From positions 1 through 17,826 of the forward strand of contig CAMLRJ010000015.1 of NCBI GenBank assembly GCA_946482345.1: a stretch of 17,826 bases of DNA. The letters run 5' to 3'. The notes beneath the pieces were generated by a model. That model had not been told where the DNA came from and made no database searches. It saw only the letters and a list, made by a program, of their open reading frames with translations. Within the stretch, counting starts at the first letter, position 1. Each line of letters opens with the position of its first letter. The position numbers and the translations under genes are program-made. The stretch is from an uncultured Cellvibrio sp. Its GTDB lineage: Bacteria > Pseudomonadota > Gammaproteobacteria > Pseudomonadales > Cellvibrionaceae. Of this stretch, positions 4,483 to 17,826 are shown piece after piece.

Positions 4483-4896
4483 TTATTTACTGCCTGTTTT
4501 GTTGGATCGTGAACTATTGTGATCCTGAACACTCACCGCGGTACCCGCTTCGGTAATTGAGACGTTGAAAACACCGGTAGTATCAGTTGTCATGCGCATG
4601 GGTTTGTGTGTTCTTTTTCCTGTTGCCAAACCTGAAGCTGCATCACGAGGGCTTTTAACCTGATGATTTAACACGAGAGGAGTGGAAACTGCTTTGCCAT
4701 CTTTATCCGTTTGTTCAACTTTATACTCACCAACTGCCAGATCACTGATCACACAGGTTGCATTCGGACAAGACACAATTTTGGACTCACCATTAACACC
4801 CGTAAATTTTAAATAGATATCCGCTGCAAAACCGGGCGCACTAACAACCGCAAAAATACTAAACAAGATTGCCTGAAGAGAAATCATTTTTTTCAT
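4483..4896 (-). CDS. Small exported protein of unknown function
   Basis: A roughly 137-residue protein with a clear Sec signal peptide (MKKMISLQAILFSIFAVVS, cleavage probably after GFA before ADIYLKF). The mature part is about 114 residues with two close cysteines (SCPNATCVI) that could form a disulfide, and a Ser/Asn/Lys-rich end. I recognise no family. The frame is open to a GTG at 4908, but GGAG lies at 4903-4906, inside that extension, and is well spaced for the ATG at 4896 (or 4899), so I use the ATG. It converges on the SutA-like gene with only 8 bases between stops and is not obviously in an operon with motB. Confidence 0.7.
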   Translation of the reverse strand: MKKMISLQAILFSIFAVVSAPGFAADIYLKFTGVNGESKIVSCPNATCVISDLAVGEYKVEQTDKDGKAVSTPLVLNHQVKSPRDAASGLATGKRTHKPMRMTTDTTGVFNVSITEAGTAVSVQDHNSSRSNKTGSK

Positions 4897-4972
4897 CATA
4901 AACTCCACTTGGGCTAATGACCGGGATTAGTCAAAATCAAGACTAGCAGGGATAACTGAATTGAAAGTGAAG

Positions 4973-7090: not shown

Positions 7091-7188
7091 GGTAGATATG
7101 TGCGCCAAATCCCTTCTTTACAAACCATAGACATTTATTAGTAAAAACGATTAAATCGCCGACTCGTTTGCATCAACTGGATAGAAAA

Positions 7189-8877
7189 ATGGCAATTATT
7201 GGTATTGATTTGGGAACCACCAACAGCAGCTGTGGAGTATGGACTGAACAGGGTGTGAAGTTAATTCCAAATCGTCTGGGTGATTTATTAACACCATCCG
7301 TTGTTGGTCTGGATGATAAAAATAATATTAGCGTTGGCCGCGTCGCCAAAGAAAGATTAATCAGCCACAGCGATAAAACCGTTGCCGTCTTCAAACGACT
7401 CATGGGTACCGAGCACAAAGTTATTTTGGGTAATAAACAATTCACTGCAACCGAATTATCCGCGCTTGTACTGCGCTCACTAAAAGAAGATGCCGAAAAT
7501 TTTTTAGGTGAAGAAGTCACCGAAGCCGTCATCAGTGTTCCGGCTTATTTTAATGATAATCAACGTCACGCCACCAAAACTGCTGGCGAATTGGCAGGAC
7601 TCAAAGTTGAACGATTGATCAACGAACCCACTGCCGCCGCCATTGCTTACGGATTACATGAAAAACAGGAAGGCACTTTTTTAATTCTGGACATGGGCGG
7701 CGGCACTTTCGATGTTTCCATTCTGGAATTTTTTGAAGGTGTGATGGAAGTTCACGCCAGCGCCGGTGATAATTTTTTGGGCGGTGAAGATTTTGTTGAT
7801 GCCATGATTAACGATGTGTTGCAGCAACTTGATATTAATCGACAATCACTCTCGGCACAGGAAACCAATCAATTACTGATGCAAATGGAAACTGCAAAGC
7901 GCCGGATTGGAACCAAAGAACAACAAATTTTAAATTTACACATTGCAAAAACCGATCACACTTTCACAGTCACTGATGAATGGTTTACCAAAATTGCCAC
8001 GCCACTTTTATTGCGGGCCAAACGCCCGATTGAGCGAGCATTAAGCGACGCCAATATGTCACCCCAGGCAATTGATGATGTAGTTCTGGTTGGCGGCGCA
8101 ACACGTATGGGAATTTTTCGTTCAACGATTGGCCGCATGTTTGGCCGCTTGCCATCCTGTCATCTTGATCCTGATTGTGCGATTACCATGGGCGCCACTA
8201 TTCAAGCAGGATTAAAATCCAAAGATAAAGCGCTATCCGATATTGTTCTGACAGATGTTTGCCCTTACACATTAGGCACTGATGTCGTTAACGAAAATAC
8301 CAATGAGGGCGGATATTTTTTACCGATCATTGAACGCAATTCCGTTGTTCCCATTAGTGTCACACGTCGATTGGTCACAGCACACGATAATCAAAAACAA
8401 TTGTCGATTGGCATTTATCAGGGTGAAAACCGTTTGGTCAGTAAAAATATTTTACTGGGCCGATTAACGCTGGATGTTCCACCGGGGCCTGCCGGAAAAG
8501 AAGCGGTTGATGTTCGTTACAGTTACGACATGAATGGCTTGTTGGAAGTCGATGTAAAAGTCGCATCAACCGGAAAAAGTATTAATAAAGTGATTGAACA
8601 ATCACCCGGCAGCCTGACAGCTGAAGAAAAAGAAAAAGCGCGATTGCGTTTGGCTGCATTAAAATTTCATCCTCGCGATCAGGAAACCAATCGCGCACTG
8701 CTTGCACGGGGGGAACGGCTTTATGAGTCCAGCCTCGGTGAAAAACGCGAAAAAATTGCGCAGATACTAGCTGATTTCGATCACATACTGGAAAAACAAA
8801 ATCCGGTTGAAATTAAAAAAGCTGTCGCACAATTGGAAGTTTTATTAAACCAACTGGATACCGAGGAATGGTTGTAA
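7189..8877 (+). CDS. hscC: HscC-type Hsp70 chaperone
   Basis: A 562-residue Hsp70 resembling E. coli HscC (Hsc62) more than DnaK. The nucleotide-binding domain is complete: GIDLGTTNSSCGVW at the start, VISVPAYFNDNQR, INEPTAAAIAYGL, LDMGGGTFDVSIL and DDVVLVGGATRMG. Blocks typical of HscC are LVLRSLKEDAENFLGE and VHASAGDNFLGGEDF, plus VYQGEN-like IYQGENRLVSKNILL in the substrate domain. The lid is short and the DnaK-style C-terminal tail is missing, which fits HscC length (about 556). The open frame reaches a TTG at 7168, but ATG 7189 with GGAT upstream gives the expected N-terminus. It abuts the J-like gene at 8878, its probable co-chaperone. Confidence 0.92.
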   Translation: MAIIGIDLGTTNSSCGVWTEQGVKLIPNRLGDLLTPSVVGLDDKNNISVGRVAKERLISHSDKTVAVFKRLMGTEHKVILGNKQFTATELSALVLRSLKEDAENFLGEEVTEAVISVPAYFNDNQRHATKTAGELAGLKVERLINEPTAAAIAYGLHEKQEGTFLILDMGGGTFDVSILEFFEGVMEVHASAGDNFLGGEDFVDAMINDVLQQLDINRQSLSAQETNQLLMQMETAKRRIGTKEQQILNLHIAKTDHTFTVTDEWFTKIATPLLLRAKRPIERALSDANMSPQAIDDVVLVGGATRMGIFRSTIGRMFGRLPSCHLDPDCAITMGATIQAGLKSKDKALSDIVLTDVCPYTLGTDVVNENTNEGGYFLPIIERNSVVPISVTRRLVTAHDNQKQLSIGIYQGENRLVSKNILLGRLTLDVPPGPAGKEAVDVRYSYDMNGLLEVDVKVASTGKSINKVIEQSPGSLTAEEKEKARLRLAALKFHPRDQETNRALLARGERLYESSLGEKREKIAQILADFDHILEKQNPVEIKKAVAQLEVLLNQLDTEEWL

Positions 8878-10143
8878 ATGGATATTTGGCAAATTCTGGA
8901 GATAGAACCTACTCCCGATCAAAAAGCGATTAAACGCGCCTACTCCAAAAAATTAAAAGTCACTCGTCCGGATGAAAATGCAGAAGCTTTTCAAAGCTTA
9001 CACTACGCTTATAAAGCCGCATTACATCAAGCCACTTATTGGGATGAATATCAGCAAGAATATAAAGATGATACTGATGAATCCAAACAACCCGAGCATC
9101 AGGACGAATCAGAAAGCCAACGAACTGCAGAAATATCAATAATCACTGAACAGCCAATTATTGATTCACCTGTTGAGCCCACATTGGAAACTGCCGACTT
9201 GAATCCACCAGACAATTCCGTTGACGAAACAACTGTGGAAACCCAGGTTAATCCTTTACAAATGGAGGGTGAACGTTTATTGGGTTTAACTGAATTATTT
9301 CTGGCGACAAGTAATGGTGGACAAAACAATCCGAAAAATTGGACATTTATTATTGAGTCGCCTTTTATTCTTGAAGATCATTTTAATTGGCGATTGGGTT
9401 TGGAGTTACTGCGAGTTATCCACGAACACAATCTTAATCATGTTGCCAAAGTATCATCACTGGTTGGGCAAGAAGCCCTGACCTATCTCAATTCCATTTT
9501 TAACTGGATGGATAATCGATACCATGTGACCCGCGCGTTGGGCGATGATTACAACACATGGTTGGATATGATCAGGGACAACAACGAATCAGAAAAAAAT
9601 TATCGCGATAAAATTCGCGGCGGAAAAAATCTGCTGTTACAACAAAAAAATACTGAACAGGCAACCCAGCCAACAGCCCGACGATCCAGCCTTGCTTTCA
9701 GCCGGTTTTGCGCATTTTTTCTTGACTGCATTTTTTTACTTATGCTGATTGGTCTGCTGGCAAATGGTGAAAATACCGATGGTAAAACCATCTCCTCTCA
9801 AGCCTTGGCTATTTTATCGATGTTTGCCGTGTTTATTTATTTCGGTGGATTTGAAGCCTCTATATTACAAGGAACCCCCGGCAAAAAAATTATGAAGCTT
9901 GCCGTTATTACCGATCAGGGAAATCCTCTTGAAGTTCTACATGCCTCGTTCAGAACCTTATGCTTCTTTGCTTTTTATATTTTCTTTTTTACAGTGCCTG
10001 CAGGCATCTCGGCACTACTGCGTTCATTTGATATAGATTTCTATGTTTTATCCATAGCGATACAAGCTTATGGAATTTATTTAGCAGCAAGGCCGATTAA
10101 TTTTTACGACAAAATTTCAAAAACGCGGGTTATTCAAATTTAG
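8878..10143 (+). CDS. Degenerate J-domain protein fused to an RDD membrane domain
   Basis: A 421-residue protein starting on the base after the hscC stop. Residues 1-50 form a short J-domain of the DjlB/DjlC kind (DIWQILEIEPT, IKRAYSKKLK, EAFQSLHYAYKAAL). The HPD catalytic tripeptide reads R30-P31-D32. Residues 52-120 are an acidic Glu/Asp/Gln/Thr linker, and 125-230 a soluble segment with WTFIIESPFI and YNTWLDMIRD. Residues about 262-421 are an RDD domain: SRFCAFFLDCIFLLML, a second helix near 290-312, GTPGKKIMKLAVITDQG, and FYDKISKTRVIQI at the end. It likely anchors or recruits HscC at the inner membrane. That the J part still stimulates ATPase is uncertain without the His. Confidence 0.85.
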   Translation: MDIWQILEIEPTPDQKAIKRAYSKKLKVTRPDENAEAFQSLHYAYKAALHQATYWDEYQQEYKDDTDESKQPEHQDESESQRTAEISIITEQPIIDSPVEPTLETADLNPPDNSVDETTVETQVNPLQMEGERLLGLTELFLATSNGGQNNPKNWTFIIESPFILEDHFNWRLGLELLRVIHEHNLNHVAKVSSLVGQEALTYLNSIFNWMDNRYHVTRALGDDYNTWLDMIRDNNESEKNYRDKIRGGKNLLLQQKNTEQATQPTARRSSLAFSRFCAFFLDCIFLLMLIGLLANGENTDGKTISSQALAILSMFAVFIYFGGFEASILQGTPGKKIMKLAVITDQGNPLEVLHASFRTLCFFAFYIFFFTVPAGISALLRSFDIDFYVLSIAIQAYGIYLAARPINFYDKISKTRVIQI

Positions 10144-15169: not shown

Positions 15170-16003
15170 TTACAATGACAACTGATAAGCCGTCACTGTG
15201 TTTTTGAAAAAATTAGGAACCAACACTAATTTTTTGCCAGGAACAAAACCTATATCCGCGGTATTGATTTTATCAGCGCGCGAATCAATTAATTGCGTTA
15301 ACTTTCCTTTGGCATCCACCAAATAAACCAAACCTGGCCAACAGGACACGACAAAAGTTTTTTTAGCTACAGGTTCTATACCATCAATATTTTCAGCAAA
15401 ACCGCTGGCGACAACCGATATCTTTTTGTCTTTATCGACCTGTTGTAATTCCTTACCTGCACCGACCAACATTTTCGATTTAACAAAAGCCAAACCATTG
15501 GCATTAACAACGTTTTCCAGAAACACGTCCAATTTGCCATTTTTTAACTGGTAGATTTTATTGATGCGCGTGTCTGACACAAACACATCACCCGCCGGAT
15601 TAACGGCAACGTCATTCAAAAATACAGCACCTTCTGCAGGTATGCGCGAAATCACTTTTGCTTTGGCAATATCGATTGTCACCAAATGATCAATATCCGA
15701 CACATAAAGGAGATTATCTTTTGCGGCCATACCTTTGGGTGCATTCAATCCGGTAACCCAGTCTTTCTCAAGCAATTTGCCACTGGTATCAATAAGTGCG
15801 ATGCCGCCCTTGCCATCTTTACCGGTGGGTTCACCTTCAATTTGCGATACAAACACATGGTCTTTGTTTTTGATGGGGTAATACAGAACCGACTCGGGAA
15901 CAGCAAGACCATCCAGCTGCCACACCTGGGTTAATTTGGGTTCAGCCAGAACCATGGAAGCCACAAAACACAGCGACAACAACGAACCGGATCGAATCAA
16001 CAT
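15170..16003 (-). CDS. Exported SMP-30/gluconolactonase-like beta-propeller protein
   Basis: A 277-residue protein with a signal peptide (MLIRSGSLLSLCFVASMVLA, cut before EP). The mature chain reads as a six-bladed SMP-30/NHL-like propeller: VFVSQIEGEP, NAPKGMA, LYVSDIDHLVTID, FLNDVAVNPAGDVFVSDT, NANGLAF, and a final VLVPNFFKNTVTAYQL. NDVAV...VFVSDT holds the Asn/Asp positions that bind the metal in SMP-30 lactonases, but the other ligands are not clearly present, so enzymatic activity is unproven. ATG at 16003 has AGGGG nine bases ahead. It is upstream of the sensor gene on the same strand with a 30-base gap, so the two are probably co-transcribed and act in the same periplasmic process. Confidence 0.8.
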   Translation of the reverse strand: MLIRSGSLLSLCFVASMVLAEPKLTQVWQLDGLAVPESVLYYPIKNKDHVFVSQIEGEPTGKDGKGGIALIDTSGKLLEKDWVTGLNAPKGMAAKDNLLYVSDIDHLVTIDIAKAKVISRIPAEGAVFLNDVAVNPAGDVFVSDTRINKIYQLKNGKLDVFLENVVNANGLAFVKSKMLVGAGKELQQVDKDKKISVVASGFAENIDGIEPVAKKTFVVSCWPGLVYLVDAKGKLTQLIDSRADKINTADIGFVPGKKLVLVPNFFKNTVTAYQLSL

Positions 16004-16116: not shown

Positions 16117-16142
16117 GAAAAACCCCATCATGCGACGGGGTT
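16117..16142 (-). terminator. Intrinsic terminator of infA
   Basis: On the minus strand, AACCCC (16142-16137) pairs with GGGGTT (16126-16121) around a 10-base loop, followed by a T-run. It begins 4 bases after the infA stop codon and should insulate infA from the SMP-30-like gene. Confidence 0.8.
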
Positions 16143-16146
16143 CGGA

Positions 16147-16365
16147 TCATCTGGCTCTGTAGGTAATTCGACCTTTGGTCAAATCATAGGGGGTCATTTC
16201 GACTTTTACTTTGTCCCCCGTGAGTATGCGAATGTAGTTTTTACGCATCTTGCCGGAGATATGCGCCATCACAACATGGCCATTTTCCAGCTTTACCCGG
16301 AAAGTTGTATTGGGAAGGGTGTCTACAACTTCACCATCAAATTCTATGCAATCATCTTTCGCCAT
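16147..16365 (-). CDS. infA: Translation initiation factor IF-1
   Basis: A 72-residue protein, the standard IF-1 length, with an S1-type OB fold. ETLPNT-like [16 protein letters not shown] and the block [19 protein letters not shown] leave no doubt. IF-1 binds the A site of the 30S subunit and helps IF-2 and IF-3 start translation. ATG 16365 is preceded by AGAGGA. Here it sits alone, with its own terminator, directly downstream of the integron integrase gene (139 bases apart). Confidence 0.98.
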
Positions 16366-16504
16366 GCGGCATTGTCCTCTGGTAGTTTGACCTGTGTTTA
16401 CAGGGATTAAAAAACGGGGCGAATTGTGCCTTATTTAACCAGCAACGCCAAGCAAAGAATGCAAAAAACTGATGATTATCCTTTATCCCCTGCGCCACTC
16501 AGGG

Positions 16505-17491
16505 CTATAAATCATCCAACGGGCTTTTGACTTTATCCCCCAATTCATCTAACACATGCAGGTAGATCTCGGTTGTCCGAATATCGCTGTGCCCCATCAA
16601 GGTCTGGATTTGTTTTAAATCGTATTTTGCTTGCAATAAACGGGTGGCGAAGGAGTGGCGGAAAGTGTGGCAACTGGCCTGCTTGTGAATCCCACATTTT
16701 TTTATTGCACGTTTGACATGCGATTGAATTGTCGTTGGAAAAATATGATGCCGCCGAACAGCATTCCCACGAGGATCTTTACTCAAGGTCAATGATGGAA
16801 ACAAAAATTGCCATGCCAGTGATTGACCAGCGTTCGGATATTTCTTGTCGAGACGATTCGGCATATAAACGCTATCAACACCTTTTTGAATATCCAATTC
16901 TAATAATTTTTCAACGATTAAAATTTGTTGCTGCAAGGGTTCAATCAATTTTTGTGGTAGCAGTGTGGTTCTGTCTTTAAATCCTTTTCCATTAATCACT
17001 ATCAAATAACCCATTTTAAAATCCACATCTTTAACTCGTAACCTCAACACCTCCGACACTCGAAGCCCAGAGCCATACATAAGCTGCCCCATTAATTTAT
17101 AGGGATTTTCCAGTTTTTCGAAAATACTGATTGCCTCCTGATGCGAAAACACAGCTGGAATGCGCGCCGTTTTTTTAGCGTAACTGAATTCAAGATTTTC
17201 GATAGGCTTTTTCAGAAACCGGTTGTACAAATATATCAGCGCATTCAACGCTGTTTTCTGGGTATTAGGTGCAACATTCTGCTGCAGTGTCAAAAACGAA
17301 AGATATTCACGCACCTCTTCCGCATGCATTTGTGCCGGATGTTTCTTTTTGTGAAATAAAATAAATTGCCTGACCCAATAAATATAAACTTGCTCTGTGG
17401 CATAACTCTTGCCGTCCAGACGAATAAACGCCCGGAGCTGATCCATAAATTTTGTCGGTGATGGAGGGATAGGAAAACGAACATCATCCAT
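16505..17491 (-). CDS. intI: Integron integrase IntI (tyrosine recombinase)
   Basis: A 328-residue tyrosine recombinase of the integron type (class 1 IntI is 337). It recombines attC sites of gene cassettes with attI beside its own gene. The catalytic set is complete: R144 (GSGLRVSEV), K169 (NGKGFKDR), H275 and R278 (CHTFRHSFA), H301 (MGHSDIRTT), Y310 (EIYLHV). The IntI-only segment is present at 227-250, WQFLFPSLTLSKDPRGN followed by VRRHHIF, which separates it from XerC/XerD and phage integrases. The frame is open to 17608, but ATG 17491 follows GAGG at 8 bases and gives the family's DDVRFPIPPSP-type N-terminus. It appears intact. Confidence 0.95.
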   Translation of the reverse strand: MDDVRFPIPPSPTKFMDQLRAFIRLDGKSYATEQVYIYWVRQFILFHKKKHPAQMHAEEVREYLSFLTLQQNVAPNTQKTALNALIYLYNRFLKKPIENLEFSYAKKTARIPAVFSHQEAISIFEKLENPYKLMGQLMYGSGLRVSEVLRLRVKDVDFKMGYLIVINGKGFKDRTTLLPQKLIEPLQQQILIVEKLLELDIQKGVDSVYMPNRLDKKYPNAGQSLAWQFLFPSLTLSKDPRGNAVRRHHIFPTTIQSHVKRAIKKCGIHKQASCHTFRHSFATRLLQAKYDLKQIQTLMGHSDIRTTEIYLHVLDELGDKVKSPLDDL

Positions 17492-17618
17492 AACAATAAC
17501 CTCATTCAAGTCCATGAATAAAAAATGAGCCTCAAGCTCGCGGAACCGCAGTCTACTTTTCACCCGGAAATAATACAACTGCCTTATCACAGTTTTTATT
17601 TGGAACACCCTTAACTAA

Positions 17619-17645
17619 TTGATAGAAAAAGCTTTTTCCTGTCAA
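17619..17645 (-). promoter_or_regulatory. Probable intI promoter with palindromic spacer
   Basis: A perfect -35 hexamer TTGACA (17645-17640) is followed after 15 bases by TATCAA (17624-17619) on the minus strand. The spacer holds GAAAAAGCTTTTTC (17625-17638), a perfect 14-base palindrome and possible operator. Transcription would start near 17612, leaving a roughly 120-base leader before the ATG at 17491. Confidence 0.5.
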
Positions 17646-17661
17646 AATTCCACTACTTTCT

Positions 17662-17719
17662 GGAGATATACAGCGCCCACAGCTAAATACTTGAAATAAT
17701 GCAGCGCGGAGATATATAG
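17662..17719. repeat. Direct repeats in the attI region
   Basis: GGAGATATACAG (17662-17673) and GGAGATATATAG (17708-17719) differ at one base and are 46 bases apart. They lie where class 1 integrons carry the DR1 and DR2 accessory IntI-binding repeats. Confidence 0.55.
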
Positions 17720-17746
17720 TCGGCGCTGTCTATTAAACTGTTAGGT
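17671..17746. other. attI-like integron recombination site
   Basis: GTTAGGT at 17740-17746 fits the GTTRRRY core at which cassettes join integrons, in the context AAACTGTTAGGT that resembles attI1 (AAACAAAGTTAGGC). It lies upstream of, and on the opposite side from, the intI reading frame, as in all integrons. CAGCGCC (17671-17677) and GGCGCTG (17722-17728) form inverted arms, and a further CAGCGC is at 17702-17707. Bases after 17746 should be the start of the first cassette; the 80 bases left contain no start codon ATG. Region 17492-17826 otherwise holds no gene. Confidence 0.7.
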
Positions 17747-17826
17747 GTTCTCTTATTTTTAGTTTGCCTGGCTTTGCGAGAAGTTTCGGTTTTTAGTTGC
17801 AGCAAATAATTTCTTATTCGTGTTTT

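Follow-up and report, generated by a model that had tools for sequence, protein, structure and literature searches.

In integrons, the integrase IntI joins folded single-stranded attC sites to a double-stranded attI site. Saccharophagus is a genus related to the host group of the DNA analysed here. Saccharophagus degradans 2-40 is described as carrying in its chromosome a 41-kb integron whose 40 genes share a single strand, together with a 140-bp repeat (PMC2386152). Vibrio superintegrons are placed beside the gene rplT, an arrangement described from several species, and the block concerned is believed to have travelled together with the integron (PMC1382264). Class 1 mobile integrons are known from plasmid records. 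Among the papers listed for Cellvibrio integrons and for chromosomal integrons, titles and abstract openings point to no report on the locus described below (see also PMC8352920, PMC10462680).

The DNA analysed here (hereafter the window) is a stretch of 17,826 nucleotides, the right end of which very probably carries the head (integrase gene and attI site) of an integron resident in the chromosome of a gammaproteobacterium related to Cellvibrio (Table 1). The original prediction was of a resident chromosomal integron beside infA, the gene for translation initiation factor IF-1; the head, an orientation in which cassettes would follow to the right, and the chromosomal setting are supported, whereas infA as a set position is not. 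The locus shares with the integrons of five Cellvibrio-group loci (L082-L086) an integrase that is 55-69% identical, the same attI motif and an array expected on the attI side, but it has different neighbours, and arrays are visible in those loci and not within the window. The S. degradans 2-40 system is, by its description, likewise a chromosomal integron. The Vibrio superintegron likewise has its integrase beside a translation gene, rplT there and infA here; rplT keeps that place in both V. cholerae and V. vulnificus, whereas infA is without recurrence in 60 listed pairs. IntI1 of class 1 integrons belongs to the same integrase family and is 43.6% identical to the window IntI, which is encoded in a chromosomal gene block.

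Table 1. Features at the right end of the window and the evidence used to place them.
Feature	Position	Strand	Evidence or remark
Neighbouring SGL/NHL beta-propeller-like gene, in the block motB-motA-DUF1244-kinase-SGL	15170..16003	(-)	Weak NHL match, E 4e-4
infA (translation initiation factor IF-1), a neighbour outside the integron	16147..16365	(-)	TIGR00008, E 6.1e-37
infA upstream region	16366..16504	(-)	Alignment with 7 relatives
intI, integron integrase, 328 aa	16505..17491	(-)	TIGR02249, E 7.1e-116; ATG at 17491 set by homologues
attI, ending in core GTTAGGT (17740-17746)	17662..17746	(+)	blastn to relatives' intI upstream regions and shared motif
Possible cassette promoter Pc, TTGAAA / 18 nt / TATAGT	17691..17720	(+)	10/12 consensus matches; inferred
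80 bases past the attI core, expected start of first cassette	17747..17826	(+)	No complete gene or attC

The integrase gene is intact. Its open frame runs from 16505 to 17608 with a GTG start, and homologues begin at the internal ATG. In a family profile search, the 'integron integrase' model TIGR02249 scored 387 bits against a cut-off of 265. The conserved catalytic motifs of IntI hold R144, K172, H275, R278, H301 and Y310, which we take to be the catalytic residues of this enzyme, and a segment at about residues 197-249 that is mostly missing from XerC and XerD in the alignment is presumably the IntI-specific insert. A tree of 141 rows was built from 117 of the best 120 IntI listed (P0114, P0117 and P0118 fell outside the length limits), 15 genome IntI, four XerC, four XerD and the window protein. 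All eight XerC/XerD rows lie on one side of a branch with a support of 99, in a tree made by a quick method and subject to a warning that the Xer rows and three distant IntI rows are joined by long branches; the window IntI is grouped with P0001-P0004 (support 98). The insert, the profile score and the tree place the protein among the IntI-type tyrosine recombinases, as had been anticipated from its catalytic residues and IntI-specific segment, and the proposed comparison with XerC and XerD gave the separation expected. Between the window and five relatives, intI differs at 0.56-0.62 of third codon positions, compared with 0.25-0.28 of first and 0.15-0.17 of second positions, and the excess at third over second positions speaks for purifying selection. 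The window IntI is presumably an active recombinase.

This integrase type is common in the family. Of 21 genomes in the G007 genus, 16 have an integron integrase match (E up to 1e-40), as do 111 of the 144 genomes of its family (E up to 1e-60). The window adds a further lineage to the known integrons. The closest IntI in the Cellvibrio group of G002 and G007 shares about 65-69% identity with that of the window, and the closest protein among the matches listed, 91% identical, comes from a contig of 7218 bases.

Beside intI stands the GTTRRRY core of an integron attI, GTTAGGT, in the attI-like context originally proposed. The sequence TAAACTGTTA, which ends in this core, is common to seven of the eight relatives aligned (L088 is the one without it), and the attI motif is conserved at the level of sequence. 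Resemblance between the window and the eight relatives ends at the core, as would be expected where cassettes insert. When the stretch upstream of intI was compared by blastn with the same place in relatives, L082 matched over 17662-17743 with an E of 3e-6, L089 and L085 matched close to the core in pieces some 32-37 nt long (E 1e-5), and L090 matched with an E of 0.006; matches to L067 and L086 were weak (E 0.25 and 0.89), and L083, L084 and L088 gave none. The left boundary of attI was drawn from similarity alone. The direct and inverted repeats that had been noted upstream of intI both exist, the former at 17662-17673/17708-17719 (12 nt, 92%) and the latter at 17666-17680/17719-17733 (15 nt, 87%). 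The similarity of attI to the same place in relatives is stronger evidence than these repeats.

IntI, encoded leftward, would act on circular cassettes, recombining their folded single-stranded attC sites with the core of the double-stranded attI. New cassettes would enter between the G and the TT of that core, and a promoter within attI would serve for their expression to the right. Promoter-like pairs are as frequent in shuffles as in the attI region (4.2 expected, four observed), so what argues for the putative Pc is the recurrence of its TATATAGT stretch in the alignment with L082, L085, L089 and L090. An exact pattern search of 17381-17826 for the LexA box CTG-N10-CAG, a mark of SOS control in integrons, found none; the nearest LexA-like sites, with five of the six core bases, are at 17768 and 17787, beyond attI. 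For comparison, one survey gives a predicted LexA box for 56.6% of 1,103 integrase promoters (PMC3108266). The window holds no tRNA and no Rfam match at gathering level.

A strict attC finder initially gave four candidates, of which the one from L084 was dropped and three served as blastn queries, and a covariance model was then built on 26 sites of five loci; 17 of its 44 predicted pairs are changed on both sides. Among nine relatives' intI loci searched, several of them cut by contig or fetch ends, the model found 57 matches in eight (E <= 4e-14), 26 of these being sites from which the model was built and 31 being others. All lie on the attI side of intI in array orientation, with 12 in L082, 11 each in L083 and L084, 9 in L085, 10 in L086, 2 in L087, 1 each in L089 and L090, and 0 in L088. 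Five of the seven relatives with TAAACTGTTA thereby carry 9-12 attC sites on the attI side. Weaker matches below these 57 fall on the opposite strand of the same near-palindromic sites; L082 has three weak matches (E 0.003 to 0.64), two of them on the far side of intI, and L079 has one (E 0.7). In L082-L086 the attC sites have a length of about 130 bases and for the most part agree at 70-96%, and so resemble the 140-bp repeat reported from Saccharophagus.

In the window, which ends with its contig 80 bases after the core, the model had no match, and this would also be seen if intI and attI remained beside an array that is empty or lost. L088 offers a precedent, having intI but no attI motif, and no attC match in the roughly 10 kb searched on its attI side. 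Because of L088, and because intI is broken in L090, decayed integron heads occur in this group. The window nevertheless keeps the attI motif, unlike L088, its intI appears to be under purifying selection, and the sequence after its core has no similarity to any relative aligned, as is the case for cassettes. We therefore consider a head without cassettes unlikely, and cassettes of the resident integron are likely to lie beyond 17826.

The surroundings of the integron, judged on its left side, agree with the plain chromosomal setting, without transposon or resistance genes, that had been described. Its neighbours are motB, motA, a DUF1244 gene, the kinase gene, SGL and infA. Fifteen of the 16 main genes of the window have ordinary family matches, with no transposase, resistance or transfer gene besides intI; the gene at 4483-4908 has no family match. 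At all eight SGL loci read in relatives, motB, motA and DUF1244 form a block with SGL, joined at six by the hybrid kinase (the other two are without a long match to it); neither infA nor intI occurs in the stretches read there. The gene names clpS, clpA, ate, aat, motA, motB, apbE, sufE and tatD were checked, those of the infA locus in L079. Between motA and the DUF1244 gene, separated by about 0.2-0.3 kb in the eight relatives' loci, the window instead has an Hsp70-family gene and an RDD-domain gene, the latter with a weak, sub-threshold J-domain match (7168-10143).

The genes next to intI were also compared among eight Cellvibrio-group loci. The next gene is common to L086, L087 and L088; each of the remaining five loci has no gene in common with any other locus (frames of at least 110 aa, within at most 9 kb). 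The shared gene stands at the integrase 3' end even though the L087 integrase is 45% identical to that of the window, a hint that this integron position recurs.

The kinase, SGL and intI may be associated beyond the window. The database entry for each protein cluster gives the size of its longest contig, and sizes were compared across the best 120 rows of each of the IntI, SGL and kinase lists. Relatives of IntI (68%), SGL (71%) and the kinase (76%) share one contig size, 10626 bases, and one source; the proteins are P0028, P0126 and P0245, and the P0028 cluster spans two contigs. Among the best 120 rows, exact size matches numbered 12 between the SGL and kinase lists, whose genes are syntenic neighbours (0.28 expected by chance), two of at least 5 kb between intI and SGL (0.08) and one between intI and the kinase (0.13). 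This suggests that the three genes lie close together in one more lineage, a reading of their closeness and not of their order or of infA. Two further pairings were left out of account: P0001 with P0135, both of 7218 bases and from one source, was set aside on a chance rate of about 0.08 for exact intI-SGL matches of at least 5 kb and on differing identities (91% and 61%), and P0018 with P0182 (2707 bases) was dropped on account of differing sources.

These observations bear on whether the integron was brought in recently by a plasmid or a transposon. A sample of 390 genomes from the order contains five with an IntI 63-67% identical to the related P0039 (E up to 1e-125), one of them with an internal stop, and the type therefore probably moves between lineages over time. 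However, the best 5000 plasmid records with IntI relatives are all below 60% identical (the top one at 45.7%), the 15 ordinary window genes include none of the kinds that accompany mobile elements as listed above, and the apparent linkage of kinase, SGL and intI in a second lineage would indicate an older, resident position. Viral contigs yielded no IntI relative; five stretches fitted a pattern, none of them a relative. A recent arrival is accordingly highly improbable, and residence in the chromosome is the preferred reading.

The position of infA is the one local oddity of an otherwise ordinary chromosomal setting. The gene is intact and 99% identical to infA of G002 and G007, whose loci L002 and L048 bear the name Cellvibrio. 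It has a terminator-like hairpin at 16120-16143, and likeness to the relatives' infA upstream region extends to near 16475, which leaves about 30 bases before the intI stop. Its relatives are found elsewhere. At all 11 infA loci compared (10 genomes, G019 having given two), clpA and ate flank infA, and the genes follow one another as clpS (where the contig reaches), clpA, infA, ate and aat; in L119, about 1.4 kb separates clpA from infA. The matches listed, 150 for intI in 106 genomes, gave 60 pairs with both genes on one contig (41 family genomes), of which none lay within 20 kb, the nearest being 35.9 kb apart. The fetched flanks of 51 loci also contain no infA. The proposal that placement next to infA marks a fixed integron position is thus not supported by the comparison of relatives that it called for, intI never adjoining infA in the 11 loci or 60 pairs, and on these loci and pairs a family-wide fixed position at infA is rejected. 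Separately, intI and infA share a contig in seven genomes (G013, G109, G093, G136, G137, G133 and G134) at a spacing of about 141-194 kb, which recurs loosely.

The order SGL-infA-intI was found in the window alone, and neither infA junction occurs in the relatives' loci read, as would be expected if two or three loci had been joined into a chimera during assembly. Yet there is no GC shift across the junctions (0.41-0.44 across 14.0-17.5 kb), infA retains its own upstream region and hairpin, and the shared contig size of 10626 bases links kinase, SGL and intI elsewhere. We judge such a chimera quite unlikely, and an assembly fault to be the less likely account compared with an arrangement particular to this lineage. 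How a lineage-specific order arose can be outlined only tentatively. The integron might have joined the region just upstream of infA, and infA with its own upstream region would have left the clpA-ate position and come to stand between kinase-SGL and intI. Such an event would parallel rplT in Vibrio, although in a different family and with a different gene, with a translation gene kept at the integron head and moving along with the integron.

The window represents one more lineage among Cellvibrio-group chromosomal integrons, and it comes with an attI site and with an attC model that could find its cassettes. If the linkage to infA is fixed in this lineage, infA would be a further translation gene kept next to the head of an integron, comparable to rplT in Vibrio, and the case would be relevant to whether integrons settle at essential genes or drag them along.
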